A stretch of 27,934 bases of DNA from IMG/VR virus record IMGVR_UViG_3300048590_001245, positions 1 to 27,934 of that record; one strand, 5' to 3'. Source of the stretch: a virus. A program made the position numbers and the translations under genes. The first letter of the stretch is position 1. Each line of letters opens with the position of its first letter. The notes under the pieces were generated by a model that worked only from the letters and a program-made list of their open reading frames with translations, was not told the origin of the DNA and did no database searches. Of this stretch, positions 2,362 through 27,934 are shown one piece after another.

Positions 2362-2927
2362 CAACGCCCCACGACGGCGGCAAAACGCTTGATGCGAGTC
2401 AGGCGCGCAAACATCGCTGCCCCGACTGTGGCCTCGGCCTCAAACATGACGTCGAGGTCAAAGCGGGCTCTAAGCGGCTTTAGCGACTCGATGACGCGCA
2501 GGATGCGGCGTCTTTCGGCCTCGCCAAGGGGGCGGTTGTCCTTGTTGAAAAGGATGACCTTGAAGGTGTAGGGCTCCCTCGGCTCGGGGTGGTCCCACCA
2601 CTCGCGGATTCTAGCCCTGACGCCAAGGGTCTCCATGGCCAAGTCGATGGCAGCCAGGGTGCCGCGCAGCCTTTTGATCTTCTCAAAGCGAGAGATGATC
2701 TCACGGCGCCGCCTCGTCAGGTCGTCTTCGCTCTCCACCCCGACAAAGTCCTCGTCCCACAGCTCAACCCCCCTCTCCCAAGCCAGATACGGCAGAAAGG
2801 CCGGCGGGCAGGTGTCAGGGTCAAAAAGCGAGGCAAAGTCAAAGGAGAGGCCCTCGAGCCTCTGCCCTGCGACCTCCTCGAGCGTCCTCTCAAGCGGCGT
2901 CGAATTTTTCGGCAGAAGGCTTGTCAC
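2361..2927 (-). CDS. Tail protein I (baseplate component)
   Basis: This is the P2 gpI-type baseplate protein, 188 residues. It opens with LLPKNSTPLERTLEEVAGQR and continues DPDTCPPAFLPYLAWERGVELWDEDF, the hallmark of the family (an N-terminal helix, then P..LP.LAW......W). The later RRREIISRFEKIKRLRGT and MFEAEATVGAAMFARL segments also fit. The GTG start at 2927 overlaps the gpJ stop as GTGA, and the gene ends in overlap with the fibre gene. The order gpV, gpW, gpJ, gpI, fibre matches P2, which supports the call independently of motifs. Confidence 0.88.
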   Translation of the reverse strand: MTSLLPKNSTPLERTLEEVAGQRLEGLSFDFASLFDPDTCPPAFLPYLAWERGVELWDEDFVGVESEDDLTRRRREIISRFEKIKRLRGTLAAIDLAMETLGVRARIREWWDHPEPREPYTFKVILFNKDNRPLGEAERRRILRVIESLKPLRARFDLDVMFEAEATVGAAMFARLTRIKRFAAVVGR

Positions 2928-6476: not shown

Positions 6477-6820
6477 GCGAAGTCCTCTCCAAGCTCGGTG
6501 TCGAGCTCTTCGGCAAGATCAAGCTGACTCATCCCGGTCAGATCGTCGTGGCAGGCGGCCACCCGGTAGCGCCTGCCCTCAACGGCAAAGACATCCCCAG
6601 CCTCGGCCCCCGAAAGATCACTCGTCAGGCCGAGAAACTGGCTGTTCTCGGCCGAAACGCGCATCGAGCCGACGGCCTCGTCGAAGAATTTCACGTCAAA
6701 GACGCCTGTCACTTCTCTGCCGGAAAGCTTCCCGGTTTGAAACACCCCCCGGTGGACGAGGTCTGTTCCTCTAAAAAAAAAGGTAATGTCCCCCTCGCCG
6801 AAGGCATCTTTTGGTGTCAA
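6473..6820 (-). CDS. Probable head-tail connector protein
   Basis: The likely start is a TTG at 6820, overlapping the capsid gene stop as TTGA with a purine-rich AGGCGAGAG just upstream. This gives 115 residues beginning MTPKDAFGEGDITFFFRG. A longer frame extends into the capsid gene, but its N-terminal 60 residues are an arginine/histidine-rich shadow of that gene. The remainder is a beta-rich protein (GDVFAVEGRRYRVAACHDD) typical of lambda FII / head-tail attachment proteins. Position between capsid and tail-completion genes supports a connector role. Confidence 0.62.
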   Translation of the reverse strand: MTPKDAFGEGDITFFFRGTDLVHRGVFQTGKLSGREVTGVFDVKFFDEAVGSMRVSAENSQFLGLTSDLSGAEAGDVFAVEGRRYRVAACHDDLTGMSQLDLAEELDTELGEDFA

Positions 6821-8736: not shown

Positions 8737-10132
8737 AGCTCAGACCGAATTTTTCGGCCTTGGCCTTCTCGGCTACGATTTCTGAAAAGACGTCGTCCAG
8801 TGACCTCCCCTGCTCGGAGATGATCTCTGTGCGCGATTTGAGCCCGGCCTCGAGCGCCAGGATGTTGGCCTTGGTGTCTTTGAGCGGGTCGACCCAGGCC
8901 CAGCGCCTGGCGACCCACTGCGGCGAGTCAAAGCGGTCCATGTTGACCGTTGTGATTTTCGTGAATTTCTTGGAAAGCACCGCTCCCGTCAACCACTTCG
9001 CGTAGACGGCCTCGCACAGGTTCTCAACCAGCCAGTTTTGCAGGCACACGTAGTGGTCACGCTCTTCGAGAAGACTCGATCGGAGAGACGAGTAGCTGAC
9101 GCTCTCGACGTCGTTGGCAAGCGAGTTGTAGGAGATGCCGAGGCCTGCCGAGATGCCGCGCAAACAGGCCTTCACGAAGGGGCCGAAGTTTCCGGCCGGG
9201 TGCTCGGGGTTCCAGGGCTCAAACTCGACCCCTTCCGGCAGAAGCTCGAAGGCTCCCGGCTCGGCCTTCTGGATGACGTTTCCCTCTTCGTCGGGCTTGA
9301 GGTCGTCGCCGACATAGCCCGCGCCGCCGGTCTGCTTGAAAAAGCCCATCTTGGTGCTTGCCACCCGGGCTGCGACCAGCTCGGCCTCCTCGTAGCCACC
9401 GAGCATCTTGAGGCGACTCATGGCCGTGTGAATCCACGGCACGCCGCGGGTTTGTTGCGGCATGTCCTGCATGAAAACGTGCAGGATCTCGCCGGCCGGG
9501 ATGCGCCGGTAGTGCCGGCCTGCCACCACCTCGCCCGTGTCGCGACCTGACTTGAAGTAGTAGGCAGTCGGCTTTCCCCACTCGTCGAGCTCGACTCCCA
9601 TCGAGATGAGCCTCTCGCCCTTGCTGTCTGAGAGCTTTTCGTCAAGCAGGGCCGGGTCGATCACCTGCAGCGCCAGACCGTAGGGGTAGCGCTCGCCGTA
9701 GACAAAGCGAAGGAAAGCCTCGCCGTCGCGCGCCACCCCCTGGAGCACAAGCCGCTGAACATCCCGCCAGGAAAGCCTCCCGGTAACGTCGCAACTGCCC
9801 TTTTTCCCCCAGCGGCGAAACTGCTCCTCGATCTCGTCGTTCACCTGGTGGTCGATTTCGCCCTGCACCTTAAACGAGCACCTAAGCTGAATGCCCTTGG
9901 GGCCGACCACGTGCGTGTTGAGGAGCGCCAGAAAGCGCTTCACGTAGTCGTTGTTTTGCGCCAGATCGCGCGAGCGACCCCGAAGACGAGACAGCGAGGC
10001 GAGGATGTCTTTGTCGTAGGGGGTGTCAGCCCCCCAGCCAGCTGCCTGCAGCCGGGAGGTCTTGGCAGCGTCAAAAACCCTTTTTTGAACCTTGTCTTTG
10101 CGCCCGAGAAAGACTCTGGCAAACCAGCCCAC
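8657..10132 (-). CDS. Phage portal protein, lambda family
   Basis: This protein forms the ring through which DNA enters and leaves the head. It has 491 residues, a usual length. Recognisable blocks are GWGADTPYDKDILASLSRLRGRSRDLAQNNDYVKRFL, which opens lambda-type portals, then LNTHVVGPKGIQLR, DGEAFLRFVYGERYPYGLALQVIDPALLDE, RIPAGEILHVFMQDMPQQTRGVPWI and LRGISAGLGISYNSLANDVESVSYSSLR. The start is GTG at 10132, six bases after the gpW-like stop. The C-terminal 40 residues are acidic and overlap the start of the capsid gene. Confidence 0.95.
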   Translation of the reverse strand: MGWFARVFLGRKDKVQKRVFDAAKTSRLQAAGWGADTPYDKDILASLSRLRGRSRDLAQNNDYVKRFLALLNTHVVGPKGIQLRCSFKVQGEIDHQVNDEIEEQFRRWGKKGSCDVTGRLSWRDVQRLVLQGVARDGEAFLRFVYGERYPYGLALQVIDPALLDEKLSDSKGERLISMGVELDEWGKPTAYYFKSGRDTGEVVAGRHYRRIPAGEILHVFMQDMPQQTRGVPWIHTAMSRLKMLGGYEEAELVAARVASTKMGFFKQTGGAGYVGDDLKPDEEGNVIQKAEPGAFELLPEGVEFEPWNPEHPAGNFGPFVKACLRGISAGLGISYNSLANDVESVSYSSLRSSLLEERDHYVCLQNWLVENLCEAVYAKWLTGAVLSKKFTKITTVNMDRFDSPQWVARRWAWVDPLKDTKANILALEAGLKSRTEIISEQGRSLDDVFSEIVAEKAKAEKFGLSFGEGSEEDSGDEGEAEATESDEQYLS

Positions 10133-10138
10133 GCGTCT

Positions 10139-10396
10139 TTAAAACCTCACGAGGACTTGGCGGGCAGACGGCAGGTCTCCGCGTCTAAGCCGTGCCTCAA
10201 GGCGAGCAATCTCTTTTTGGTAGTAGTCTTTTGCCTGAAGCAGCTCTTTGAGCGGGATTTTGTCGAGCCGGCGCTTTCCGAGGTTGGTCTCGATCTCAAA
10301 GGAGGAGATGTCGCTGCCGACGCGGCCTGCAATCGTAGCGTCGATGGCAGCCGAAATCGACCTTGCGCGCTCGAGCGCCACTTTGACCTCTTCCAC
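10139..10396 (-). CDS. Head-tail joining protein (gpW-like)
   Basis: The likely start is GTG at 10396, which shares a base with the TAG stop of the terminase (TAGTG) and gives 85 residues. The longer open frame upstream lies over the terminase gene in another phase and reads as basic low-complexity sequence. The protein is helix-rich: EEVKVALERARSIS, a short ETNLGKRRLDKIPL turn, then KELLQAKDYYQKEIARLEARL. Size, shape and position between large terminase and portal match lambda gpW, which completes the head before tail joining. Confidence 0.72.
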   Translation of the reverse strand: MEEVKVALERARSISAAIDATIAGRVGSDISSFEIETNLGKRRLDKIPLKELLQAKDYYQKEIARLEARLRRGDLPSARQVLVRF

Positions 10397-12240
10397 TAGT
10401 TTCTCCAGGCGTTCACAAAGCCGACGCCACTTGGCCGCTTCTTGAGGAGGACCTTTTTTTTCTCGCTCGCCTTGCCGTGGCTGTCTCGAAGGCGCTCCAT
10501 CCTCTGGGTGATCTCGCGAAAAAGCGGGTTGAGGATGACGGCGGCCGCGTGCGCGTAGACGGCCGTGTCGAGAGCTTCGTTGCGACGGTGCCGCGGCAGC
10601 TCCCACACCTTGACGGGGTGGCCATTTTGGTAAGTGATCTTCACGCGTTCTGAGGTAAGCTGTTTATAGTAATCGCCGGAAAGCGCCATGGGGAAATGTA
10701 TGTAGCCGGGGCCAGGATCTGAAAGCTTGAGCCTCTGGTAGAGAAGCGTCTTCCCCTCGTCGACGCCAAGCGGATAAAGCACCACCTCGCGCCCGTCCGA
10801 GGGGCTTTTGCGTCTGGTCGGCGCACCGACGACTGGCCTTCCCGTGCCGCGCACGCCTTTTACGGCAAAGACCCTCTGGCCGGTCTTGCCGCGCACGTAG
10901 TCGTAGACGATCTTGGTGTTGTCGCCCGCGTCGACGGCGGTTGCCACGACCCGGACGGGAAAGCCCCACTCGTGGCGAAACTCTCGCGAGCGAAGCTCGT
11001 CGAGCTCTGCCCACGGCGCCTCTGTGGCGACGTCCCCCCAAAAGACATAGTAGCCGATCACCCAGGCCTCCCAGTCCTCGCCGTAGCCGATGACGTGGGC
11101 CTCAAGGCGGTCGTCTTGGACGTCGACTCCAAGACAAAGCACCCTGACACCGGCTGGCACCTCGGCCTCGTAGTTTTCGGCTCTCGTGGAAAGCAGACTC
11201 GAGGCCACCGTGTCGACCTCGTCCTCGTAGGGCTCGCCGAGAAAGGTGTTGTAGAAGACCTTCATTTTCTCGGTGTCGCGCTGGGCTGCCATGTACTCGT
11301 CAGCCGTCTCGCCAAAGGAGACCCACGGCGAGTAGAGGGCCGAGATGTGAAAGCCGACACTTGCCCCCCGCCTCTCGGGATCAAGGCAGCGCCAGCGACC
11401 GGCCTTGAGGGCTGTCAATTTGTGGCCGTCGTAGATCGCCCCCGCACACTCCTGGCAGCGGTAGAAGGCTGTCTCAGTCCTGGCCTCCTCCCAGACCACC
11501 CCCTCCCATTCAAGGACGATAAAGGCTCGGCAGTGGGGACAGGGCAGCTCGAAGACGTGCCGTCTGGAGGCCTCGTAGAGGCGGTTGATCTTGGAGGTCC
11601 GGCGCTCCCGCGAGGGCGAGCTGGTAGCGATAAATTTTCGGTTGTAGAAGGTCGACGACCTCTTTCGCGCCAGATCGAGCGGGCTTCCCTCCGAGCCGGC
11701 TGAATCCGGCATCCGGTCGACCTCGTCGGCGTAGACGATGCGAATCGGCCTAGAGGAGAGCGAGGCTGGCGAGTTGGCGCCAGCCAGCGAGATGTGACCG
11801 CCGGCAAAGCGCTTGTGCAGCATGGTGTTGGAGGAGTCCTTGGCCTTGGGGTCTTCGACGATCTTGGCAAGGACCTTTGCGTCGCGAATCATGGTGGCCA
11901 GGCGGTCTTTGCTCCAGATCTCGGCTAGCTCGAGGGTCGGCAGAAGCACCAGCTGGGGGCTTGGCTCCTGGTGGGTGTAGTAGCCGATGCAGTTGAGAAG
12001 AAACTCGGTCTTTCCGACCTGGGCTGCAGCCTTGACGATGACCTCTTTGACCTCTGGTGCCTTGACGGCCTCCATGATGCCTCGAAGATAAGGCACAGCG
12101 TCGGTGCGCCAGCGGCCTGGCGAGGCCGAGGCCTCGCCTGAAAGGACACGGTAGCGCTCGGCCCAATCCGAGATGGAAAGCCGAGGCGGCGGGGCAAAGG
12201 CTTCGCGAAAGACTTCGAGCAGCTCCCCTTTTGCCCTCAA
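10396..12240 (-). CDS. Large terminase subunit, GpA family
   Basis: This is the ATP-driven DNA packaging motor and nuclease, 614 residues. An N-terminal DWAERYRVLSGEASASPGRW is typical of GpA. The Walker A-like KAAAQVGKTE is at about residues 70-79 and Walker B IRIVYADEVDR at about 166-176. A pair of CxxC motifs (CPHC at about 234, CQEC at about 262) probably binds zinc. The nuclease domain starts with LCLGVDVQDDRLE at about 369-380, where Asp is a candidate metal ligand. The start is TTG at 12240, overlapping the small-subunit stop as TTGA. The C-terminus is short and basic. Confidence 0.95.
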   Translation of the reverse strand: MRAKGELLEVFREAFAPPPRLSISDWAERYRVLSGEASASPGRWRTDAVPYLRGIMEAVKAPEVKEVIVKAAAQVGKTEFLLNCIGYYTHQEPSPQLVLLPTLELAEIWSKDRLATMIRDAKVLAKIVEDPKAKDSSNTMLHKRFAGGHISLAGANSPASLSSRPIRIVYADEVDRMPDSAGSEGSPLDLARKRSSTFYNRKFIATSSPSRERRTSKINRLYEASRRHVFELPCPHCRAFIVLEWEGVVWEEARTETAFYRCQECAGAIYDGHKLTALKAGRWRCLDPERRGASVGFHISALYSPWVSFGETADEYMAAQRDTEKMKVFYNTFLGEPYEDEVDTVASSLLSTRAENYEAEVPAGVRVLCLGVDVQDDRLEAHVIGYGEDWEAWVIGYYVFWGDVATEAPWAELDELRSREFRHEWGFPVRVVATAVDAGDNTKIVYDYVRGKTGQRVFAVKGVRGTGRPVVGAPTRRKSPSDGREVVLYPLGVDEGKTLLYQRLKLSDPGPGYIHFPMALSGDYYKQLTSERVKITYQNGHPVKVWELPRHRRNEALDTAVYAHAAAVILNPLFREITQRMERLRDSHGKASEKKKVLLKKRPSGVGFVNAWRN

Positions 12241-12533
12241 ATGACCTCTCCCCTGGAAAGCTCGGCCAAGGCGTCGTCGATGGCCCGAGTGAGCACCTCT
12301 TCGACCTCGGCTGGCTCACCAAGGAGAGCCAGGGTGGGCGCCAGCGACGCTGGGATCGCAAGAAGCCTCGCCTTGGCTGCCATGACGGCCGCCTTCCAGA
12401 GCTTTTTCACCTCGTCGACTGGCACGAGCTGGCGCTCTTTCTCGAGCAGCTCCAGCTCGAGCTTGTCGGCTCTCACCTTGGTGAGCCGCACCTGCTCGAC
12501 CTCGAGGGCTCCTCCTTTGTGTTCTTCCCTCAA
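12237..12533 (-). CDS. Terminase small subunit, short Nu1-like
   Basis: A TTG at 12533 overlapping the recombinase stop (TTGA) gives 98 residues. The core TKVRADKLELELLEKERQLVPVDEV, followed by AKARLLAIPASLAPTLA, is the C-terminal oligomerisation part of Nu1-type small terminases. The usual N-terminal winged-helix DNA-binding domain (about 60-70 residues) is absent: starting earlier adds only 15 residues that overlap the recombinase. Either DNA recognition for packaging is supplied elsewhere or this is a naturally short relative. Downstream it overlaps the large subunit by 4 nt. Confidence 0.75.
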   Translation of the reverse strand: MREEHKGGALEVEQVRLTKVRADKLELELLEKERQLVPVDEVKKLWKAAVMAAKARLLAIPASLAPTLALLGEPAEVEEVLTRAIDDALAELSRGEVI

Positions 12534-14257
12534 AGCCTCACTCCGGTGGAGGTTTGCAGACGGACAGTCGGCAGCCACCTGGTGTCGACCTCGGCGTCGT
12601 CGATTTTTAGATAGGCGTAGGTCTGGTCGACGGCGCTGTGATTCATTTTGAGCTGGATACTACGGATATCGGCGCCGTCTTCGTAGGCAAACTTGGCCCA
12701 CGAGACTCTGAGACTGTGGGCTCTTCTTTGGCTTCCCCCGGCAGCAAGCGGGGTGATGCCGGCCTTGTCGAAAAGGACACTAATGCGGCGACAGCTGGTC
12801 GAAATGCCTAGCGGCTTGTCCTTGACCTCGAGAGAGGCCGAGAAAAGGTAGGCCTCGGGAGGGGCGTCGTGAAAGTAGCGCTCGATATAGGCCTCGACCA
12901 TGTCGGCGACTGGCTTTGAGACGCCGACAGTGTAGCGATCGGCGTTGGCCTTGCTTTCAATGGCGAGGCTTTTGCCGCGGCGTGTCTCGACGAGGTCGCA
13001 CTTTCTAAGCGAAAGAAGCCCGCTGTGGCGCATGCCGACGCCGGCCAAGAGGTAGACGGCCAAGAGGTCGCGGTGGGCCTTCCAGCGCTGGGGGATGTTC
13101 AAAGGCGGCGTCGACTTCAAGATCTCCTGGGCCGTGGCGATGACCTTGGCGGTTTCGTCTCGGGTGAGCGCCTCGGTCTGGACCTTTCTGTCGATCTTTG
13201 GAACCTTGAGCCTTTGAAGCGGGTTTTTCGGGATCTCCTCTTCGCCAGCGCAAAACTGCATGAAGGCTTTGACGGCCGACAGCTCGCTGGCGATGGTGGC
13301 CGGCTGCTTGCCAAGCTCGGCTCGGTACTGCTTGAAGGCCACGACGCTTTCCAGCGTGAACTTGTCGAGACGGTCGGCGGGGCTTTCGAGCACGTCCTTG
13401 GCAAAGGCGCGATAGGTGCCAAGGTGCTTGCGGTAGAGCTTGGCGGTGGCGGGCTTTCTTTGGCCGGAAAGAAAGATCTCGAGAAGCTGCTCGAGCCTCT
13501 CTTCGGGCGTCTCTGCGAGGTTTCCAAGCCTTGCTAGGCTTTTGGCCGGCTCGGACTTGTCGCTCTCCACCTTGCGCGCAAGCGGTCGCTGGTGGCCGCG
13601 CGTGTAGCGGTGGGCGGCACTCACCGACACGCCGTACTTCTTTGCCAAGGCCTCCAGCGTTGCGCCCTCTCGCCTCTCGCGCTGCATGTCGGAGATAAAG
13701 CTTTTGCCGTGGGCCTCGGCGATGCTCGGCAGCCGTCGGGGGCGGAGCTTTTTCTGATGAGTGTTCATGACCCCGGTGAGAAACGAGCTGGTCATCTGCT
13801 CTTTGGGATCAAGCAGCAGGTTTTCATCAAGCAGCCGCACGTAGAGGCCGTCTTTCCGGCGCTTCTCGTAGAGATCGACGAAGAGGTCGATGTCGAGCCT
13901 GGGGTGGTTCAGGCCATCGATCACCACCACACTGCGGTCTTCGGCCGTCAGCATCAGCGAGCGAAAGGAGGTATTCTTTTCGAGTACCACCCGCACCTTG
14001 TTCATGCGCTCGTCCAGGTGCGGCAGCATCTTGCCGGGATGCCGCCTCTCCTCCTGCGCCCGGTAGAGCCGCTTCATCTCCTCCAGTGAGCCACCAAGCG
14101 ACACGTAGTAGATCGTCAGCACCCGACTCTGCTCCTTCCCCAGCACGCTTTTGCGAATAAATAGCGCCCAAGCCCCACCCCTTTCTTCGTCGTGAGAAGT
14201 AGGAGGTAAGACAGGGTTACTCCGAAGGGCCGGGACGGCACCGAAGATGAGACGCAA
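12530..14257 (-). CDS. Chimeric recombinase: resolvase-like N-terminus plus tyrosine recombinase
   Basis: This probably integrates or excises the phage DNA. The C-terminal half is a tyrosine recombinase: a SAM-like core-binding domain at about 250-340, then a catalytic domain with Arg410 (AGVGMRHSGLLSL), His514-x-x-Arg517 (RRAHSLRVSW), His540 (KMNHSAVDQTYAYL) and probable nucleophile Tyr549. The N-terminal 220 residues resemble a serine recombinase: LFIRKSVLGKEQ with a serine at 37 where resolvases carry the catalytic one, SVVVIDGLNHPRL where they have a DRLSR motif, and a helix-turn-helix at about 198-218 (ATLEALAKKYGVSVSAAHRY). The DRLSR arginines are not conserved, so that domain may be inactive. 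The start is a TTG at 14257 with AGGG nearby; no better in-frame start is seen. The gene overlaps the small terminase. Confidence 0.8.
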   Translation of the reverse strand: MRLIFGAVPALRSNPVLPPTSHDEERGGAWALFIRKSVLGKEQSRVLTIYYVSLGGSLEEMKRLYRAQEERRHPGKMLPHLDERMNKVRVVLEKNTSFRSLMLTAEDRSVVVIDGLNHPRLDIDLFVDLYEKRRKDGLYVRLLDENLLLDPKEQMTSSFLTGVMNTHQKKLRPRRLPSIAEAHGKSFISDMQRERREGATLEALAKKYGVSVSAAHRYTRGHQRPLARKVESDKSEPAKSLARLGNLAETPEERLEQLLEIFLSGQRKPATAKLYRKHLGTYRAFAKDVLESPADRLDKFTLESVVAFKQYRAELGKQPATIASELSAVKAFMQFCAGEEEIPKNPLQRLKVPKIDRKVQTEALTRDETAKVIATAQEILKSTPPLNIPQRWKAHRDLLAVYLLAGVGMRHSGLLSLRKCDLVETRRGKSLAIESKANADRYTVGVSKPVADMVEAYIERYFHDAPPEAYLFSASLEVKDKPLGISTSCRRISVLFDKAGITPLAAGGSQRRAHSLRVSWAKFAYEDGADIRSIQLKMNHSAVDQTYAYLKIDDAEVDTRWLPTVRLQTSTGVRL

Positions 14258-17218: not shown

Positions 17219-17326
17219 AGACAAAGGGGTGCTTAGCCAAAGGTCGGCACACAGGTGCGCTCGCCGTAGACGTTCTGCCGACGCAGAGCGCGCTTCCCCA
17301 TTTCTTGCTGGTGGAGTTTTTAGGCA

Positions 17327-17437
17327 ATGACTCCAGCACCTCTTGAAGTCTCCCCGCACGCTGCACTCCGCCTCAAGGAGCGTCGCAGCTCGCGCACTGA
17401 GGTGCGTCGCAGCTTACTGGAAGGACTGAGCCCGTGA
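17327..17437 (+). pseudogene. Shortened DUF4258-like gene (36 codons)
   Basis: ATG at 17327 opens a 36-residue frame: LEVSPHAALRLKERRSSRTEV and a further helix RRSLLEGLSP. This matches the start of DUF4258 proteins (S.HA..R..ER..S...V...L), which are normally 70-90 residues; the strand-rich C-terminal part is missing. The stop overlaps the GTG of the DUF2283 gene as GTGA, the usual arrangement for this pair, so the fragment has kept its coupling. It could be a decayed gene or a functional minimal leader. Confidence 0.5.
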
Positions 17438-17724: not shown

Positions 17725-17756
17725 TCTTTGTCGCAATCTAACCAGCTGGGTGCGGC

Positions 17757-17776
17757 GTCTTTTTGCAGAGAAAGAC
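17757..17776. terminator. Hairpin between convergent genes
   Basis: GTCTTT, an 8-base loop and AAAGAC make a six-pair hairpin. It lies between the plus-strand DUF2283 gene and the minus-strand HigA gene, where a bidirectional terminator could serve. There is no T-tract, so this is tentative. Confidence 0.3.
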
Positions 17777-17803
17777 GGGGGTCGGACGCAGGGAGCCGCT
17801 TGC

Positions 17804-18154
17804 TTACTCTTGTTCATCCTCGCGCCGATCCCAAACAATCCGGGGACGCCTGCCTAACACACGCCCCAGCTCCACAAGACTGGCTAGCGTGAGATTCGCC
17901 TCCGCATTGACGATCTTATAAGCCTGCCGAGTACTTGTTCCAAGTCTCGAGGTGAGCATGGGGACCCCGATTTTTTCAGTCGCCATGAACTCAACCACAG
18001 TCTTGCTCAGCTCTTCCTGCATCGCCTTCAAATCGGCAAGCTCTTGCAAAGCTTCGAGCCTGCTTTCCGCTCGCTCCTCTGGCGTCAGGCGCGCATTCAG
18101 CAGCTCGTCGACGTCCTGGAATTGTTCAAGTCGCTCTTTGGTAAAGCGAGCCAC
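17804..18154 (-). CDS. HigA-like XRE antitoxin
   Basis: A 116-residue protein from GTG 18154. Helical N-terminus (FTKERLEQFQDVDELLNARL), then LADLKAMQEELSKTVVEFM and a helix-turn-helix at about residues 60-100: MATEKIGVPMLTSRLGTSTR and AYKIVNAEANLTLASLVELG. This is the form of HigA partners of Gp49/HigB toxins. The toxin normally precedes the antitoxin, and a stub of one is found immediately upstream on this strand. It therefore appears to be a solitary antitoxin that may protect against related toxins or act as a regulator. Confidence 0.7.
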   Translation of the reverse strand: MARFTKERLEQFQDVDELLNARLTPEERAESRLEALQELADLKAMQEELSKTVVEFMATEKIGVPMLTSRLGTSTRQAYKIVNAEANLTLASLVELGRVLGRRPRIVWDRREDEQE

Positions 18155-18157
18155 AGC

Positions 18158-18253
18158 CTACTCCTTGTCCTGCAGCCGTTTTTGAGCAGTTTCGATGTCG
18201 GATGCTTGCGATCCCTTGTCATCACCGACGAGCAGGATGGCCCCGTCCTTCTC
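18158..18253 (-). pseudogene. Remnant of a HigB/Gp49-like toxin
   Basis: Reading the minus strand, 31 sense codons lie between an in-frame TAA (18254-18256) and a TAG. They translate as EKDGAILLVGDDKGSQASDI and a following helix ending LQDKE. This is the C-terminus of Gp49/HigB toxins (G.ILL..DK....DI..A...L). No start codon remains in frame. A strong ribosome site (AAAGGAG at 18263-18269) and an AT-rich, promoter-like stretch lie just upstream, so an internal deletion seems to have removed the toxin body while leaving its expression signals and the antitoxin. Confidence 0.65.
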
Positions 18254-18468
18254 TTATCGGATCTCCTTTGATTTTACTATATGAAAAATTTGTCATAAAG
18301 TACAAACTCTAGCCGCCCTATCCGACGTCATCCCAAGCCCCTCTACTCCCTCCATAAAAGTCGAGCTGTTGAGCCAGATTCTCACTTTCCCTAAAGACTT
18401 TGAGGCAAAAGTCCGACCTCCTCCTACAAGCCGCCTAGAGGAATCCGTGCCTGCTCGGAGTTGCCCGA

Positions 18469-21400
18469 ATGCCCAAGCACCACCAACTCTCCTCGGCTCT
18501 GACCGGGCTGTGGCTCGCCCTGGCGCCGCTGGCTGCTAGCGCAGGCCCGTTCCCGTTGTCCTACGGCGGACGCCTGACTGATGCGACCGGTGCACCGTTG
18601 TCGGGGCCGGTCGATCTTGCCGTGAATTTCTTCCGAAGCGAGACCGGCGGCAATCCGCTGCTCGGCGAGCCGGTCGTCGCCCCCTCCGAGACCCTTCAGG
18701 ACGGAGTTTTCCAGCTTACTCTCGATCTGCCGGTCGACGACTACACGACGATTTTCCCCTCGGCCGAAACGACCGCCTATATCGAGATCACCGACCAGAC
18801 CAACGCGCGCACCTATCCCCGGCAGCGCTTTACTGTCGTACCGCTGGCAGCCCGGGTGCCGGTCGACGGCAGCACCGTGACGTTTGACGACAACGGCCGC
18901 CTCAAGGCCACTCTTCCGGCCGCCGCGGCCAATACGCCCGGCGTGATCAAAGCGACCGGCGCCTTCGTCGAAGTCGACGCAGGGGGTGACATCACCGCCA
19001 TCAAACAAGCACAGAGCTTCTCCGGCACGCTGAGCGGTGACGTCAGCGGCACGCAGAATGCCACAGTGGTCACCAAGATCCGCGGCAAGGCCTTCACGGA
19101 TGCGCTCGATGCCAGCAATGACCAGAAGGTCGTCAAGTGGGACAACGCCACCGGCAGCTTCAAGCTCATGAACGACATTGCCAGCGGCGGCCTGAACGCT
19201 GGCGACGTCACGTCGACCACCATAGCCGACGGCACCATCGCAAACGCCGACATCAGCGCCTCGGCCAACATCGATGCCGGCAAGATCGGCACGGGAGCAG
19301 TCGACAACACGCACTTCAACTATTTGGCGGGCCTGACCTCAGACCCGCAAGCCCAGCTCAACGCCAAGCAGTCGACCATCACGGCCGCCACCGTCCTGCC
19401 GGTCGGCTCGCTCACCACGGACCTGCAGGCCGCCGTGACGCTCGGCGGCTATGGCAGCGGCGCGGGACAAACCGGCGAGCTGCGCTTTACCGAGCGTGAC
19501 GGGCTCGAGAGCAACTACGTCGGCCTCAAGGCGCCCGACGCGGTCGCAAGCAATCAGATCTGGACTCTGCCAGCCGCAGACGGCACGGCCGGCCAGCTGC
19601 TCAGCACAAATGGCTCGGGCGCCTTGTCTTGGGTGACAGCAACCACCGCCAGCTCGGGAGACACCCTGACCAACAAGACGATCAGCGCCGACGACAACAC
19701 GATCACGGGCATCGACGACTCGGAGATCAAAACAGGCGCGGGTATCGCCCGCGCCAAGCTGGCTTCCGGCACGGCTTCCCACGTGCTCGTCAACGACGGC
19801 AGCGGCGTGATGAGCTCCGAGGCGCAGCTTTCGATCTCCCGCGGCGGCACCGGGGCCGCCACCGCCAGCGCGGCACTCACCAACCTGCTACCCGCCCAGA
19901 CCGGCAACTCCGGCAAGGTTCTCTCGACCGACGGCACGGCGGCCTCGTGGAGTGCTCTCAACGCGGCCAACTGGGACACGGCGCACACCGACCGCCTGAA
20001 GTGGGACGGCGGCTCTGCCGGCCTCGTCGCCGCCACCGGCCGAACGAGCCTCGGCCTCGGCACATCGGCTACGCTCGATGCCGGCACCGCCGCCAATCAA
20101 CTGGTGCAGCTCGATGGCACGGGCAAGCTGCCAGCCGTCGACGGCTCGGCCCTTACCAGCCTCAGCCCCGCCAACCTCAGTGCGGCCGTGGCCGTAGCCA
20201 AGGGCGGCACCGGCGCGACGACGGCCGATGGAGCTCTGACGAATCTTCTGCCCGCACAGACGGGCAACTCCGGCAAGGTGCTCACGACCGACGGCAGCAC
20301 GACGTCGTGGCTTGCTCTCAGCACCAGCAACTGGAATACAGCCTACAGTGAGCGTCTGCAGTGGGACGGCGGCTCTACCGGCCTTGTCGCTGCGACGGCC
20401 CGCACCAGCCTAGGCCTCGGCACGGCCGCCACGTTGGACGTCGGCACCACTGCCAACAAGGTCGTGCAACTCGACGGCACTGCCAAGCTGCCCGCCGTCG
20501 ACGGCTCGCAGCTCACGAGCGTCGTCACGACAGCGACGGTCGACAGCGCCGGTGCCGTGATGAACGGCGACTTCGGCTCAAACGGCCTGATGGCCCGCAC
20601 CGGTGCGGGGACCTACAGCGTCGTGACCGATAACTCCGCCAACTGGGACACCGCCTACACGGACCGCATGAAATGGGACGGCGGTGCCACCGGCCTGGTC
20701 GCCGCGACCGCGCGCACCAGCCTCGGCCTTGGCACCAGCGCGACACTCGATGTCGGCACCACCGCCAACAAAGTCGTCCAGCTCGACGGTAGTGCCCGGC
20801 TTCCGGCCGTCGACGGCTCGCAGCTCACCAATTTGCCGGCAGCCAGTCTCACCTGCCCCACGGGCTATATCCTGGTGCCGGGCAATGCGAGCTTCACCAA
20901 CGCAAGCTTCTGCGTCATGAAGTACGAGGCTAAGAAGGATGGCGCCACCGGCCAGGCCGTCTCGACCGCCACGGGCACCCCCTGGGTCAACGTCTCCTGG
21001 TATGAGGCTCAAAGCGCCTGCAAGCGGGTCGGCGGCCACCTTGTCAACGAAGGCGAGTGGATGACCATCGCTCGCAACATCGAGGCAACCGCCATCAACG
21101 ACATCGACTCTGCAGCCGGCATCCAGCTTGCCACCGGCCACTCCGACAACTCTCCGGCTAGCGCCTTGGCCGCGGTGGCGGACCCCTCGCTTGCGAGCTG
21201 CACGCTGACCCTTGCACTCTCCGATGCCAGCAACAACTCCTGCGCCCTGCGTGGCCCCGGCACCTACGCCAACAACAGCACCGACTACGGCTACTACGGT
21301 ACCAGCAACGGCTACAGCACAGCCTACTCGGCTGGTGGTGCCAACAAGTCGCAAATGCGCACCCACGTCCTCAGCAACGGCAATGTCATCTGGGACATGG

Positions 21401-21711
21401 CCGGCAACGTCTGGGAGTGGACGGATGCGCAATGCGATACGACGAGCTGGTACACCACCGGATGGGTCGAGTGGAACAACGCCAACGTCACCGACTGGGA
21501 GAAACTAGTCGCTGGCCCAAGCGGCTCTCTGACCTCCTCAAACGGGGCCGGTCAGTATTATGGATGCAGCGCAAGTGGCAATGCCCTGCTCCGCGGCGGC
21601 CTCTGGTACTATGGCCCGATCGCCGGCGTGTTCGCCGCCACTCTGTACTATGGGCCGTCGGACGTCAGCAGCTCCGTGGGCTTTCGCTGCGCCTTCTCCA
21701 ATGCCCACTAA
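18469..21711 (+). CDS. DGR target protein: exported, tail-fibre-like repeats, FGE/C-type-lectin domain
   Basis: A 1080-residue surface or secreted protein that is diversified by the DGR. The N-terminus is a Sec signal peptide (hydrophobic ALTGLWLALAPLAASA, cleavage likely after ASA at about residue 24). A beta-sandwich-like domain (SYGGRLTDATGAPLSGPVDL) follows. Residues 500-790 carry three 65-residue copies containing RTSLGLGTAATLDVGTTANK and LPAVDGSQLT, the type found in phage tail fibres. From about 794 the formylglycine-generating-enzyme-like fold begins: CPTGYILVPGNASF, FCVMKYEA, VSWYEAQSACKRVGGHLVNE, MAGNVWEWTD, and GFRCAFS at the end. That domain presents 12 template-adenine-dependent codons at 1045-1069, of which 11 differ from the template. 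GGAG lies 9-10 bases before the ATG. There is no anchor at the C-terminus, so how it stays on the surface is unknown. Confidence 0.9.
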   Translation: MPKHHQLSSALTGLWLALAPLAASAGPFPLSYGGRLTDATGAPLSGPVDLAVNFFRSETGGNPLLGEPVVAPSETLQDGVFQLTLDLPVDDYTTIFPSAETTAYIEITDQTNARTYPRQRFTVVPLAARVPVDGSTVTFDDNGRLKATLPAAAANTPGVIKATGAFVEVDAGGDITAIKQAQSFSGTLSGDVSGTQNATVVTKIRGKAFTDALDASNDQKVVKWDNATGSFKLMNDIASGGLNAGDVTSTTIADGTIANADISASANIDAGKIGTGAVDNTHFNYLAGLTSDPQAQLNAKQSTITAATVLPVGSLTTDLQAAVTLGGYGSGAGQTGELRFTERDGLESNYVGLKAPDAVASNQIWTLPAADGTAGQLLSTNGSGALSWVTATTASSGDTLTNKTISADDNTITGIDDSEIKTGAGIARAKLASGTASHVLVNDGSGVMSSEAQLSISRGGTGAATASAALTNLLPAQTGNSGKVLSTDGTAASWSALNAANWDTAHTDRLKWDGGSAGLVAATGRTSLGLGTSATLDAGTAANQLVQLDGTGKLPAVDGSALTSLSPANLSAAVAVAKGGTGATTADGALTNLLPAQTGNSGKVLTTDGSTTSWLALSTSNWNTAYSERLQWDGGSTGLVAATARTSLGLGTAATLDVGTTANKVVQLDGTAKLPAVDGSQLTSVVTTATVDSAGAVMNGDFGSNGLMARTGAGTYSVVTDNSANWDTAYTDRMKWDGGATGLVAATARTSLGLGTSATLDVGTTANKVVQLDGSARLPAVDGSQLTNLPAASLTCPTGYILVPGNASFTNASFCVMKYEAKKDGATGQAVSTATGTPWVNVSWYEAQSACKRVGGHLVNEGEWMTIARNIEATAINDIDSAAGIQLATGHSDNSPASALAAVADPSLASCTLTLALSDASNNSCALRGPGTYANNSTDYGYYGTSNGYSTAYSAGGANKSQMRTHVLSNGNVIWDMAGNVWEWTDAQCDTTSWYTTGWVEWNNANVTDWEKLVAGPSGSLTSSNGAGQYYGCSASGNALLRGGLWYYGPIAGVFAATLYYGPSDVSSSVGFRCAFSNAH
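19969..20835 (+). repeat. Three 65-residue coding repeats in the DGR target
   Basis: Copies at 19969-20163, 20329-20523 and 20641-20835 encode near-identical blocks, beginning NWDTA or NWNTA and ending AVDGS.LT. Copies 1 and 2 are also preceded by a shared 45-residue block (GGTGA...TNLLPAQTGNSGKVL), so a longer unit was duplicated. These probably form the stalk that holds the variable domain away from the cell. Confidence 0.8.
21582..21695 (+). repeat. DGR variable repeat (VR)
   Basis: This 114-bp segment ends 16 bases before the end of the target gene. Against TR (24071-24184) it is identical at all 92 non-adenine positions. Thirteen of TR's 22 adenines are replaced: seven by T, four by C, two by G. 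Changed codons encode residues 1045, 1047, 1048, 1050, 1051, 1058, 1060, 1061, 1065, 1067 and 1069. The last 20 bp (GTGGGCTTTCGCTGCGCCTT) contain no adenine and are the expected initiation-of-mutagenic-homing region. Just past 21695 the two repeats diverge at non-adenine bases. Confidence 0.97.
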
Positions 21712-21750
21712 GTCCTTGGTTTCTTGGACCTTGGTCCTTGGTTTTGGGGT

Positions 21751-21769
21751 CTGGGGGCGTAGCCCCCAG
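21751..21769 (+). other. DGR hairpin downstream of VR
   Basis: CTGGGGGC and GCCCCCAG form an eight-pair GC-rich stem with the loop GTA, 39 bases after the target stop and 55 bases after VR. In Bordetella phage BPP-1 a similar hairpin/cruciform behind VR aids target recognition. Here the loop is three bases and the distance is longer. It might also end transcription of the target gene, though it has no T-run. Confidence 0.65.
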
Positions 21770-21776
21770 CGGCTCC

Positions 21777-21803
21777 ATTTCGGAAATTTCCGAAATTTCG
21801 GAA
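21777..21803. repeat. 9-bp repeat cluster 1
   Basis: Three tandem units ATTTCGGAA, ATTTCCGAA, ATTTCGGAA, then a diverged fourth. Units alternate between the two orientations of TTCSGAA, so 21777-21796 is a perfect 20-bp palindrome. The cluster starts seven bases after the VR hairpin. Confidence 0.85.
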
Positions 21804-21874
21804 ATTGTGCCGAAACAGCACATTCGCGTAAGTTGTTGATTTAATTTATTATGTCTATTTCTCCATCAGGCAGC

Positions 21875-21942
21875 ATTTCCGAAACTTCGGAAACGTCACT
21901 TCCGCAACTTCCGCAACTTCGGAAATTTCCGAAATTTCGGAA
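21875..21942. repeat. 9-bp repeat cluster 2
   Basis: Seven units of the form AYTTCSGMA (ATTTCCGAA, ACTTCGGAA, a 5-base break, ACTTCCGCA twice, ACTTCGGAA, ATTTCCGAA, ATTTCGGAA). It lies 79 bases upstream of the DNA-binding protein start and is the most degenerate cluster. The last three units repeat the alternation of cluster 1. Confidence 0.85.
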
Positions 21943-22020
21943 ATTATGCCAGTCAGGAATTTTCTCCTTTTGAGTGAGGATATCCCCTGCTAGGGTGCTT
22001 TGCGCTCCCAATCAAGGATC

Positions 22021-22719
22021 ATGCCGCCCGCGATGCCACGCCGCAGCCAGCCCCAATCCCAGCTCGAGGTAAGCGTCGATACTGCCGCGAAATCTCTCGG
22101 TGTTTCTGAGCGCATGGTCCTCAACTACATCAAGGCCAGACAGATCAAGGCGCTGCGTGTCGGCAAGCGCTGGTATGTCGACCTCGCCTCGCTGGAGGCC
22201 TTTCGGCAGGCCAGCGGTCTCACGGAAAGGGAGCCTCAGGCCATTTCCGAAACTTCGGAAATTTCGGAAATTTCGGAAATTTCGGAAACGCTTCCGAAGT
22301 CGCCGGAGGCCACAGGCAGCGAACGCCCGCCGCGCCCCAGGCGGGCCTCCTCTGGGAAGAACCTCGACGGGCTTGCCTGCTACCGGCTGTGCCTGGAGGC
22401 TTTCCGGATGCCGATGTGGGGGGACGCCGACAAGCTCCGCTACGGCCATCGACTGCGTGATCTGCAGGGCGCGATTCTCGAGCAGCTCGGCTCCGGGTTC
22501 TATTCGTATGGCGCAGAAAAGCGCGCCTACTATGACCGCTCCCGAGGACTGATCGGTGCGGCGTTGGCGCTCGTTTACAGTGATCCTGATGCGAGGCTGC
22601 GTTGGGCCAGCGACGTCGCCTTTCTGGAGGGCGATGTGCTGCCCGCGTTTGCGTCTTTGATCAAGAAAATCGAGCGTGGTCAGGACCGCGACGGCCGGGG
22701 GCGACGCCATGAGCGCTAG
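22021..22719 (+). CDS. HTH_17/excisionase-like DNA-binding protein with helical C-terminal domain
   Basis: The ATG at 22021 has AAGGA very close upstream; ATG 22033 is an alternative. The protein has 232 residues. Residues about 20-70 are an excisionase/MerR-like winged helix: VDTAAKSLGVSERMVLNYIK then RQIKALRVGKRWYVDLASLE. The linker at 75-93 contains SEISEISEIS, encoded by 9-bp repeat cluster 3. From about residue 117 a helix-rich domain of about 105 residues follows (ACYRLCLEAFRMPMW, LRYGHRLRDLQGAILEQL, GLIGAALALVYSDPDARLRW, VLPAFASLIKK). Its size and helix layout recall Avd, which is encoded next, so it may be a diverged Avd-like bundle. Its stop overlaps avd by 11 nt. It probably regulates the DGR or helps recognise the target; this is inference. 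Confidence 0.8.
   Translation: MPPAMPRRSQPQSQLEVSVDTAAKSLGVSERMVLNYIKARQIKALRVGKRWYVDLASLEAFRQASGLTEREPQAISETSEISEISEISETLPKSPEATGSERPPRPRRASSGKNLDGLACYRLCLEAFRMPMWGDADKLRYGHRLRDLQGAILEQLGSGFYSYGAEKRAYYDRSRGLIGAALALVYSDPDARLRWASDVAFLEGDVLPAFASLIKKIERGQDRDGRGRRHER
22243..22287 (+). repeat. 9-bp repeat cluster 3, inside the DNA-binding protein gene
   Basis: Five tandem units (ATTTCCGAA, ACTTCGGAA, then ATTTCGGAA three times), followed after ACG by the palindromic CTTCCGAAG to 22299. The nine-base period keeps the frame and encodes ISE/TSE triplets in the linker. The first two units match the first two of cluster 2. Confidence 0.85.
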
Positions 22720-23086
22720 AAGCCCCAAGATCCTCGCCGACAGCTACCAATTGACCGTCATGGTATTTGGAAGAACACGCAGCTTTCCCAAACACTACCG
22801 CCCGACACTTGGCCGCCGCCTGGAGGACCGGGCGATCGACCTGACGTCAGCCGTCCGCGTCGCTAGCCTTGCCAAAAGTGGCGGCAAAGACTCGCGGCGG
22901 TCCGCCTCCTTGGAGAGCGCCTCGGAGCACTTGGACGAGATCCGGATTCTGCTTCAGCTTTCGCATGACATGCAGATCATTCCGACCACCGGCTATGCCG
23001 AGCTGAGCGAGCTGACCGCCGAGGTCGGTCGGCAGATCGGTGGCTTTGGGAAGTTCGAGGCGGATGCCCGTGACCACGCTCCTTGA
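22709..23086 (+). CDS. avd: DGR accessory variability determinant (Avd)
   Basis: A 125-residue four-helix bundle protein that forms a pentameric barrel, binds the template RNA and is needed with the reverse transcriptase for adenine-directed cDNA synthesis. ATG 22709 has GGGGG six bases upstream. Characteristic blocks: SFPKHYRPTLGRRLEDRAID, then SLESASEHLDEIRILLQLSH, and EVGRQIGGFGKF at the end, equivalent to the FP...R..LG.RL, L..A...L...R.LL.L..D and GR.LGGW motifs of Avd. Basic residues in helices 1 and 2 would face RNA. It overlaps the upstream gene by 11 nt and the reverse transcriptase by about 23 nt, so expression is coupled. Confidence 0.92.
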   Translation: MSARSPKILADSYQLTVMVFGRTRSFPKHYRPTLGRRLEDRAIDLTSAVRVASLAKSGGKDSRRSASLESASEHLDEIRILLQLSHDMQIIPTTGYAELSELTAEVGRQIGGFGKFEADARDHAP

Positions 23087-24017
23087 CGAGGTGGCGGCGT
23101 TCGAGAACCTTGCACGGGCTTTCCAGCTCTGCGCACGCGGCAAGCGTGCCTCGACCGGCTATCAGCGCGCCATGTTTGCCCACGGCGAGAAGCTCGTCGC
23201 CATGCGCGGCAAGATCCTAGCAGGCCAGTATCGCTGGGGACGCTACCGGGAACTCTTGGTGAGAGACCCCAAGTCGCGTCGCGTCTTGGCGGCTCCCTTT
23301 ATGGACCGCGTCGTCCATACAGCCATCCACGAGATCATCGAGCCGATCCTCGATCCCCTGGTACCGGAGAGCGTGTATGCCTGCCGTCACGGCAAAGGCA
23401 ACCGGAAGGCCGCGACGGATCTTCTTGCGGTGCTTCGCGAGCATGGCAAAGACCGCTTCGTCATCAAGCTCGACGTCGCGCAATACTTTGCCTCGATCCG
23501 GCATGACGTGCTGCTCGCCAAGCTTTTCGAGGCGCTGCCAGACCGGAGTCTCGAGCCTCTTCTGGCTTCACTCCTGCAAAGCCATGCCGAGTATGCCTCT
23601 CGCGGCTACGGCATCCCGATCGGAAACCTGACGTCCCAGGTGTTTGCCAACTTTTATCTCGTCTCCGCCGACCGTGTCGCCACCGAGCAGCTCAAAGGCG
23701 GCTTCTACTTCCGTTACATGGACGACATGGTCCTCGGGGGCCGCAATAAGTCGGTGGTCCTCGACGCGGCCGACGCCGTGACCCAGCACGTCGAAAGCGA
23801 GCTGAGACTTTCGATTCCCCACTTCAAGCGGATGCCGCTCGGTAACGCGCCCGTGCCGTTTTTAGGATATGTGCTCGATCACGGCGGCTATCGGATTCTA
23901 AGCCGCAACAAGAGGAGGTTTGCCAAGCGGATAGGGCGCCTGGAACGCTCGGGAGCCCGCCCGAGCCGGATGGCGCAGAGCGAGCTGTCGTTTCGTTCTT
24001 TCGAGAATTTGCTATGA
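23064..24017 (+). CDS. DGR reverse transcriptase
   Basis: This enzyme copies the TR RNA into cDNA with random bases opposite adenines. ATG 23064 has GAGG six bases upstream and gives 317 residues; a GTG at 23040 is earlier but has no better site. Key motifs: KLDVAQYFASI at about 135-145 (motif 3, first catalytic Asp), GIPIGNLTSQVFANFYL at about 183-199, in which IGNLTSQ replaces the QGxxxSP of other reverse transcriptases and is diagnostic of DGR enzymes, and FRYMDDMVL at about 216-224 (catalytic YMDD). FLGYVLDHGGYRIL is the motif 7 region. No maturase or endonuclease domain is present, as expected. It is followed 53 bases later by TR. Confidence 0.96.
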   Translation: MPVTTLLDEVAAFENLARAFQLCARGKRASTGYQRAMFAHGEKLVAMRGKILAGQYRWGRYRELLVRDPKSRRVLAAPFMDRVVHTAIHEIIEPILDPLVPESVYACRHGKGNRKAATDLLAVLREHGKDRFVIKLDVAQYFASIRHDVLLAKLFEALPDRSLEPLLASLLQSHAEYASRGYGIPIGNLTSQVFANFYLVSADRVATEQLKGGFYFRYMDDMVLGGRNKSVVLDAADAVTQHVESELRLSIPHFKRMPLGNAPVPFLGYVLDHGGYRILSRNKRRFAKRIGRLERSGARPSRMAQSELSFRSFENLL

Positions 24018-24070
24018 AAAAGGTGTCGGGCTCAGAATGGCCGCGCCTGCCGTTCAGCGTTGTCCGAAGG

Positions 24071-24184
24071 TGCCCTGCTCCGCGGCGGCAACTGGAACAA
24101 TGGCACGAACGCCGGCGTGTTCGCCGCCAATCTGAACAATGGGCCGTCGAACGTCAACAGCAACGTGGGCTTTCGCTGCGCCTT
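24071..24184 (+). ncRNA. DGR template repeat (TR) within the template RNA
   Basis: This 114-bp copy is the unchanging donor for VR. In VR's frame it reads ALLRGGNWNNGTNAGVFAAN and so on. Eleven of the 12 adenine-bearing codons begin with A and ten are AAC or AAT, the codons that reach most residues without stops when adenines change. The final 20 bp match the VR end perfectly. It lies 53 bases after the reverse transcriptase stop, so the template RNA is probably the 3' part of the operon transcript. RNA ends are unknown. Confidence 0.96.
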
Positions 24185-24237
24185 GTCGTTCGCCCGGCGG
24201 CCGTGAGACTTGGGGGTTCGCTGTCTGCGTGAGGGAA

Positions 24238-24259
24238 GTCTTTTCAGCGATGAGAAGAC
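24238..24259 (+). other. Hairpin with GNRA loop downstream of TR
   Basis: GTCTTTTCA and TGAGAAGAC pair over nine positions with one wobble, closed by a GCGA tetraloop. It begins 53 bases after TR, where BPP-1 carries a structured spacer needed for cDNA priming and Avd binding. It is a candidate structural element of the template RNA. Confidence 0.5.
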
Positions 24260-24317
24260 CACGCTGAGCCTTCTGATGTTTGTCCCAAGGCACTTCGAGC
24301 CAGACACCTGTGGCTGA

Positions 24318-24351
24318 CCGAGCTGAGGGTGGGAAACCGCCCCCAGCTCGG
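24318..24351. terminator. Large GC-rich hairpin closing the DGR
   Basis: CCGAGCTG and CAGCTCGG form the base of a long stem with inner GGTGGG/CCGCCC-type pairs and an AAA-containing loop. It lies between TR and the convergent ParE-like gene. No T-run follows, so it may be a bidirectional terminator or the 3' end of the template RNA. Confidence 0.5.
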
Positions 24352-24372
24352 GGTCCGAATCGATATCACCTG

Positions 24373-26276: not shown

Positions 26277-26338
26277 GCGAGGCTCAAGCCGCATCGATAT
26301 GACCCCGGGTTATGGTTTGTACCGTAAGGTCGAGCCCT

Positions 26339-26925: not shown

Positions 26926-27934
26926 TCAGGGAAGCAGTTCGAAAAAATCGAGAGCACTGTCATGCGACTGGACATCAACGACATGTTTCGAAACGTCTGG
27001 ACGGCCATCCCAGCCGGCATCGGCATTGGCGCCGGAATGAAGATCTTCAACTGGGTCTACGCTCTCCTCGACAAGATCATCTAGAGCGCACGCCCTCGAA
27101 AGCCCCTTCGCGGCCCGCCACGCCGAGAGCTTCTCGGCGTAGGTCTTCCGCTCTCCAAGCACCAGCCCGGCCTGCAAGACGTCGGGGCAAGACTCGATCG
27201 CATCGCGATAGCCTAGCTGCCGGCTGCTGTGCGGCGTATAGACCTTGAGCCGTACGCCCTGGTACTCAGGCCTCCCGGACAAAAACTCCAGAGCCGCTTG
27301 CGCCCGGTAGTGCCGTTTGGTGAAGCACACCACCAGCCGCCTCCCGTCGAAAATCCCTACCCGCTGCCGCCAGCGAATCGCTGCCAGGGAAACCTCCCTG
27401 CCGAGGCTAGAAAGCGGCATTTGAGCTGCGCGGCTTGACTCCCGGTCAGCCCCGGCAGCCTCGCCGTCATCTTCGCCAATGCCGTCGGCAAGAAGGCTTT
27501 GAAGAGAAGCGTGAACAAGGGTGAGCTTAGGCAGAGTCGCCTCTGGCTCCCTTCCCTCTGGAACCAAAAACCCCAGCCCCAGGGGGTATAACCCCCTTCT
27601 TAGATCTATTCCGCCTTGTTTTGGTGAGTTATCAAAAAGCATATCGTCGGCCAACCACGCGGGAAGCTCGCGGTCCGAAAAGCGCCCCACCATGTGGGGG
27701 AGGTTGCGATAAATCGCCTTCACGATCGAGCGAACCTGGCGGCAGTTGCGCGAATACTCGCAGCCAGGAACCTCGACCATGCGCAGCTGAATCTTCGCCT
27801 GAGCCTCTTCCCGAGAGTAGCCATGCCACTTGTAAGCAAGGGCAAGCGACGTCAGCCACGCGTTACGCTCCCCGTCCTCAACCAGCTCGGGTCTCTTGAT
27901 CGAACTGACCGAGCAGAGAACCCTACCGCGAGCC
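26926..27934 (-). CDS. Primase-like replication protein, C-terminal part, 5' end outside window
   Basis: The frame is open from the right edge, so the start lies outside. Near the edge it reads LVEDGERNAWLTSLALAYKW, then HGYSREEAQAKIQ and NCRQVRSIVKAIYRN, which fits the PriCT domain of phage and plasmid primases (GeRN..L..LA.....G...E.......V..I...). Further on come RWRQRVGIFDGRRLVVCFTK and a variable C-terminus I do not recognise. Codon third positions are GC-rich down to about 27085, then become poor over the last 53 codons, where a convergent plus-strand peptide overlaps. Internal starts such as ATG 27780 exist but would cut the PriCT-like domain. Confidence 0.55.
   Translation of the reverse strand, partial: ARGRVLCSVSSIKRPELVEDGERNAWLTSLALAYKWHGYSREEAQAKIQLRMVEVPGCEYSRNCRQVRSIVKAIYRNLPHMVGRFSDRELPAWLADDMLFDNSPKQGGIDLRRGLYPLGLGFLVPEGREPEATLPKLTLVHASLQSLLADGIGEDDGEAAGADRESSRAAQMPLSSLGREVSLAAIRWRQRVGIFDGRRLVVCFTKRHYRAQAALEFLSGRPEYQGVRLKVYTPHSSRQLGYRDAIESCPDVLQAGLVLGERKTYAEKLSAWRAAKGLSRACALDDLVEESVDPVEDLHSGANADAGWDGRPDVSKHVVDVQSHDSALDFFELLP
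26962..27084 (+). CDS. Small membrane peptide (40 aa), holin-like in form
   Basis: ATG 26962 opens a 40-residue peptide: MRLDINDMFRNVWTAIPAGI then GIGAGMKIFNWVYALLDKII. Residues 12-34 should form one glycine-rich membrane helix. Its codons are strongly GC at the third position, whereas the opposite frame over the same bases is not, which supports coding on this strand. GAGAG lies about eight bases upstream. A longer in-frame start exists at 26848. It could be a holin or another small phage membrane protein, but it points against the endolysin, so the link is uncertain. Confidence 0.5.
   Translation: MRLDINDMFRNVWTAIPAGIGIGAGMKIFNWVYALLDKII

Follow-up and report, generated by a model that had tools for sequence, protein, structure and literature searches.

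A recently active diversity-generating retroelement carried by a phage-plasmid appears to diversify the tip of a host-type surface fibre

The 27,934-nucleotide stretch analysed here (the window), which constitutes one entire IMG/VR record (IMGVR_UViG_3300048590_001245), carries a complete diversity-generating retroelement (DGR) composed of a target gene ending in a variable repeat (VR), a gene for a helix-turn-helix (HTH) protein with a predicted Avd-like fold (HTH-Avd), a gene for Avd (accessory variability determinant), a reverse transcriptase (RT) gene and a template repeat (TR). Phage DGRs are understood as a means of changing phage tropism. The interpretation favoured here, to which we assign a probability of roughly 0.76, is that this recently active DGR is cargo of a phage-plasmid and mutates the tip of a fibre displayed on the host surface, with HTH-Avd probably acting on an array of short repeats. 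A phage-borne DGR thereby appears to change a host surface protein, an effect that would amount to lysogenic conversion through a hypervariable adhesin.

The element is a genuine and complete DGR. VR and TR align over 114 bp without a gap, with homology breaking off sharply at either end, and all 13 differences between them fall on the 22 TR adenines (seven to T, four to C and two to G), all 92 non-adenine positions being identical; the probability that 13 randomly placed differences among 114 positions would all coincide with the 22 adenines is 1.1e-11. The VR region contains 12 adenine-bearing codons, 11 of which were seen to vary. When four distinct VRs were pooled, those of L049 and L052 being scored against the nearest available TR, 52 of 88 adenine sites were changed (22 to G, 20 to T and 10 to C), compared to none of 368 non-adenine sites. 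Besides the known pairs, neither the window nor the five other IMG/VR records that possess the same locus yielded a further VR, and related genomes carry one VR per full DGR locus, with additional weak partial matches in the metagenome-assembled genomes (MAGs) G008 and G006. The RT is intact, with matches to RVT_1 (3.3e-17) and phrog_1423 'Reverse transcriptase' (2e-72), a GNxxSQ-type motif (IGNLTSQ) and YMDD, as is Avd, which matches phrog_3206 ('Avd protein of DGR', 9.7e-17) and, under the Pfam cut-off, bAvd (1.1e-8). A previous sequence-only reading of this DNA had reported the 114-bp repeats, their 13 differences at TR adenines and the 92 identical remaining positions, which realignment reproduced exactly; its description of a complete DGR with intact RT, Avd and a C-type-lectin-like target is borne out by the RVT_1, phrog_3206 and FGE-sulfatase matches, while the phage-plasmid context, the secreted host-type fibre as target and the HTH gene with its array had escaped it.

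Recent activity had likewise been proposed, with the expectation that new substitutions among relatives would be confined to TR adenines, and this was upheld by comparison of L051 and L052, two of the related records, all of which are metagenome assemblies in which each VR represents one assembled variant. Over 6,097 aligned bp these two differ at 13 positions, 12 of which lie within the VR, each at a TR adenine, compared to a single difference in the other ~5,980 bp (Fisher p = 1.5e-30). Furthermore, the L051 TR differs from that of the window by three non-adenine substitutions, all three of which are present in the L051 and L052 VRs, indicating that, after the lineages diverged, the VR was rewritten with sequence from its own TR. 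The VRs are identical between the window and L048, and between L049 and L050, so that DGR turnover appears to be recent rather than continuous. The DGR is recently active, and mutagenic retrohoming is the process to which these population data point.

It is proposed that RT and Avd copy TR RNA into cDNA, randomise its adenines and replace the VR, which would diversify the FGE/C-type-lectin-like tip of a fibre most likely displayed on the lysogenised bacterium; the enzymology of copying is adopted from phage BPP-1, and the adenine bias and TR-to-VR copying are observed here. Like the BPP-1 DGR (Mtd/Avd/bRT), the locus combines an RT, Avd, an adenine-mutagenic TR/VR pair and a target with a lectin-like C-terminus, and it has a candidate hairpin after the VR, yet it differs in its RT (~32% identical), its order (target-HTH-Avd-RT-TR), a target that looks secreted rather than being a virion protein, the additional HTH-Avd gene and repeat array, and a hairpin loop of GTA in place of GRNA. 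More than 30,000 DGRs have been reported and found to be broadly active (Roux et al. 2021, PMC8144416); the cellular ones with membrane or secreted targets share with the present DGR a signal-bearing target, a C-terminal variable tip and activity in natural populations, whereas the present one is carried by a phage-plasmid, though its close relatives are chromosomal. As a complete active DGR the element is of a known kind, and its phage-plasmid setting, host-type fibre target and HTH-Avd/array module are what is new; in the open-access literature searched, no description was found of an HTH-Avd protein with such an array, or of DGR-diversified fibres of the Bdellovibrio type.

The sequence features of the target indicate that it is most likely not a typical tail fibre, and that it would be exported and displayed on the lysogenised bacterium rather than incorporated in the virion. 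Its start (MPKHHQLSSALTGLWLALAPLAASA/GPF) resembles, by inspection, a Sec signal peptide, and its tip (residues 965–1075) matches FGE-sulfatase (3.6e-6), with the VR at the C-terminus. The N-terminal domain of ~125 residues that follows the signal was found in none of 50,697 reference phages, single-protein searches of IMG/VR returned it from this phage family only, and 24, 36, 30 and 6 copies are present in MAGs G006, G007, G008 and G009, respectively. Among the paralogs inspected, the starts are signal-like and the tips are swapped and differ in type, an S74 chaperone tip and FGE-type tips being among them. Two paralogs match, through their shafts, solved Bdellovibrio fibres of the mosaic adhesive trimer (MAT) type (8ond, Bd2133, 2.9e-5; 8ojn, 1.3e-4), the target itself being without such a match. 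On the predator surface, MATs form fibres that share a conserved N-terminal domain and carry exchangeable tips, among them a C-type lectin resembling Mtd (PMC10769870). A MAT-type architecture was also seen here, i.e., a signal peptide (by inspection), a conserved N-terminal domain (~125–130 aa), a fibre shaft, mosaic tips that can be exchanged, with a C-type lectin among them (Bd2740 in Bdellovibrio), and a large paralogous family per genome, the difference being that here the tip is DGR-mutated. In G006 and G007, each MAG carries 24–36 signal-bearing fibre genes with very different tips, and open reading frames reach 9,481 aa (G006:C24).

It is markedly improbable that this is an ordinary phage DGR in which the target is a phage tail fibre and its diversification switches the host receptor, as in BPP-1: an N-terminal signal would export the target ahead of tail assembly, the N-terminal domain belongs to a cellular multigene family absent from reference phages, the phage has a separate tail fibre gene beside its baseplate genes, and the same architecture recurs in chromosomal orthologues, even if the location within a phage genome, the fibre-like shaft and the resemblance (32–37%) of the RT to those of DGRs in Vibrio, Aeromonas and Bordetella phages would suit such a role. 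The tail-fibre reading was rejected as the likeliest on account of the signal-like start, the cellular N-terminal family and the separate tail fibre gene.

Judged from the gene content of linear fragments, the contig is part of a temperate contractile-tail phage-plasmid, since phage structural and packaging genes occur together with plasmid replication and partition genes. On the minus strand of the first 14 kb (1–14 kb) lie genes for tail fibre, baseplate, head, portal, terminase and recombinase proteins. Record L048, which is 99.98% identical to the window over 20 kb and 100% over 8 kb, extends to sheath, tube, tape-measure and gpD genes, followed by ParA and a 15-bp tandem (iteron) array, and L049 terminates in another, different 15-bp array. 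Within this replicon the fibre and DGR cassette occupy a cargo slot: identity to L051 is 98.2% up to position 17738, 90.6% for 17745–24368 and 97.5% from 24369 onwards. A sister record (3300035703_003858; 33.6 kb, major capsid protein 97%, flanks as in the window) holds in this slot a different signal-bearing fibre of the target's family, of about 1,520 aa, with no RT match in the stretches examined and with the repeat array absent; the presence of another fibre supports a cargo that alters the host surface, with a presumed benefit. L048 differs from the window at four sites in 11.9 kb (24330, 24428, 24547 and 24617), all within 290 bp after the TR and near the right edge of the slot, where recombination or assembly mixing is possible.

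Chromosomal DGRs with RTs 64–65% identical to that of the window occur in G006 and G007, in the context of ScpA, ScpB, pseudouridine synthase and QueA, and all of their TR/VR differences are at adenines (10/10 and 11/11). A chromosomal DGR of this bacterial lineage looks to have been the source of the cassette. This close relationship is also what would be expected if the DGR were host chromosomal DNA misjoined to a phage contig, or located just outside a prophage, which is nevertheless exceedingly improbable: the same order with phage genes at the left recurs across the window, the L048 record and four relatives, the records that are long enough also have lysis and Rep genes at the right, and the sister record has another fibre in the same slot. 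Host contamination was rejected based on the common synteny and the sister record. Regarding other members of this RT clade, G008 harbours two DGR RT loci in one MAG (L182 and L183, 59–61% identical to the window RT), and L253 (G009:C166) has a related RT and TR on a contig without Avd, HTH or target genes, and probably represents a disrupted locus in view of the transposase-like gene directly upstream.

With respect to the host, the only relative of the Rep protein among 72,556 plasmids is that of Pigmentibacter ruber (Oligoflexia: Silvanigrellales). One phylum-level group of 58 genomes, in which no near-identical match to Bd2133 was found, takes in G006–G009, G023, G025, G038 and G056. The Pigmentibacter Rep link, together with a 60% identical protein found in G060, suggests that the MAG group consists of Oligoflexia-like bacteria, and we infer that the host of the phage-plasmid belongs to this group. 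The Silvanigrellales Rep link and the Bdellovibrio-like fibres raise the possibility that recognition fibres of Bdellovibrio-like bacteria are diversified by DGRs. A more far-reaching proposal, in which the phage-plasmid supplies a self-mutating prey- or partner-recognition fibre to a possibly predatory host and an array-polymerised Avd-fold factor directs retrohoming, is in our estimation unlikely.

The gene preceding that of Avd encodes an HTH_17 domain and a C-terminal domain without a Pfam match. In profile searches HTH-Avd was found beside the RT in the window family, G006, G007, G008, G010 (L065, RT 42%), G023, G038 and G056, and was absent from all other DGR loci compared; the G009 DGR, which lacks it, has a transposase-like gene directly upstream of the RT. 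In the AlphaFold model, a linker of low confidence joins a winged HTH to four helices. The HTH model matches Xis, BldC and RdfS, while the C-terminus modelled alone (predicted local distance difference test 93) matches S23-family and Avd structures with weak E-values (template modelling scores of 0.70–0.75 for 2gsc, 0.62 for 4dwl and 0.72 for 8ub7_B), 8ub7_B being a chain of a DGR ribonucleoprotein that we take to be Avd. The modelled C-terminus matches the Avd/S23 four-helix-bundle fold, sequence homology to Avd being unsupported, and BLAST gave no alignment between the two. HTH-Avd is akin to the winged-HTH proteins BldC, Xis and RdfS in predicted fold, and unlike them it is fused to an Avd/S23-fold bundle and DGR-linked, with DNA binding proposed by analogy.

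BldC assembles head-to-tail on 9-bp direct repeats, for example AATTCGGAC (PMC5859096), and this site resembles the AATTTCGGA unit of the window; by analogy with BldC on its 9-bp direct repeats (AATTNNNNC), the 9-bp array of the window is a putative binding site. TTTCSGAAA units lie between the VR and the HTH gene and continue into the latter, with whole-copy variation among strains. Six copies occur in 321 bp (0.03 expected), and L065 and L252 have four and five, respectively, compared to a total of 14 in the 620 kb of control DGR loci; at the corresponding place, L060 and L251 possess TTCCGGAA arrays, and the TTTCSGAAA pattern detected no array in L250 or L062. Each 9-bp unit in the HTH gene encodes SEI, such that the length of the protein linker follows the DNA repeat number.

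HTH-Avd would probably polymerise on the 9-bp array between the VR and the cassette and, once bound, may either control the operon or keep the RT/Avd complex close to its target; together, the protein and its array suggest that DGR control or targeting involves an accessory factor bound to DNA. The chance that it acts as nothing more than an autorepressor of the DGR operon, with no role in retrohoming, falls just short of even, as HTH_17 proteins are often regulators and most loci have the array upstream of the HTH gene, against which stand the predicted Avd fold of the C-terminus, the lack of an array directly upstream of the HTH gene in L062, and locus L252. In the latter a 1.7-kb gene separates the array from the HTH gene and the array still adjoins the VR, an arrangement that speaks slightly for a role at the target. 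The intervening gene (L252:5580-7283) encodes an AAA-ATPase/PD-(D/E)XK protein.

Two further candidate cis elements lie between the VR and the array. The CTTGG-repeat element is 26/28 identical to L252:5134-5162, which occupies the same place at a locus whose RT is just 49% identical, and within IMG/VR its pattern was found in this phage family only. The candidate hairpin, with an 8-bp GC stem and a GTA loop 55 nt after the VR, is kept in L049 and L051; L065 has a GTA loop on a different stem, and the relative L251 carries a GRNA-type loop (GACA). The known DGR hairpin is GC-rich, located 4–34 bp after the VR, and has a GRNA loop (PMC3240598). An Rfam scan of the window returned no match.

Several points weigh against the interpretation of a phage-plasmid cargo that mutates a displayed fibre with the aid of HTH-Avd. 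The signal peptide was judged by eye and surface display is deduced, two of the three closest pairs show no VR difference, and the N-terminal likeness to Bdellovibrio MATs is one of architecture and not a sequence comparison. Furthermore, the phage-plasmid contigs are linear and L048 is without end repeats, the Avd-like fold matches have E-values of 0.08 and above, and profile-profile comparison of the HTH-protein C-terminus with Avd gave no support for homology (probability 0.9%, E 0.064).

Table 1. Positions of the DGR, its target and selected phage-plasmid features in the window.
Feature	Position	Strand	Remarks
Phage's own tail fibre gene	1237..2364	-	phrog_3737; beside gpI/gpJ baseplate genes
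Major head protein with protease domain	6817..8736	-	phrog_617
Portal protein	8657..10132	-	phrog_21
Terminase large subunit	10396..12240	-	phrog_15
Tyrosine recombinase (integrase or resolvase)	12530..14257	-	575 aa
Cargo slot with fibre and DGR cassette	17745..24368		divergence jumps at both edges
Target gene, 1080-aa fibre, apparently secreted	18469..21711	+	signal-like start, MAT-like N-terminal domain, repetitive shaft, FGE/C-type-lectin-like tip
VR	21582..21695	+	last codons of target gene
CTTGG-repeat element	21714..21741	+	immediately 3' of target stop codon
Hairpin CTGGGGGC-GTA-GCCCCCAG	21751..21769	+	candidate DGR target hairpin/cruciform
TTTCSGAAA array, 9-bp period, part 1	21777..21806		between VR and HTH gene
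TTTCSGAAA/TTCCGCAAC array, 9-bp period, part 2	21874..21945		copy number differs among strains
HTH-Avd protein	22021..22719	+	HTH_17 (BldC/Xis-like) N-terminus, SEI-repeat linker, predicted Avd/S23-fold four-helix C-terminus
Tandem AATTTCGGA units inside HTH gene	22242..22288	+	encode SEISEIS; one unit fewer in L049/L051
Avd	22709..23086	+	phrog_3206
DGR reverse transcriptase	23064..24017	+	IGNLTSQ, YMDD; RVT_1, phrog_1423
TR	24071..24184	+	ungapped 114-bp alignment with VR
PriCT_1 replication protein	26926..27933	-	incomplete, crosses contig end

Toxin-antitoxin-like genes (Phd/YefM, CopG, DUF2283 and others) are located at 14745–17724 and 24373–25042, on either side of the cassette, and several of these are missing or swapped in relatives. 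The tyrosine recombinase, which adjoins the terminase, has an additional N-terminal HTH region and could, on a plasmid, be a dimer resolvase, while a gene for a patatin-like phospholipase (25365–26294) adjoins that of a GH108 endolysin.

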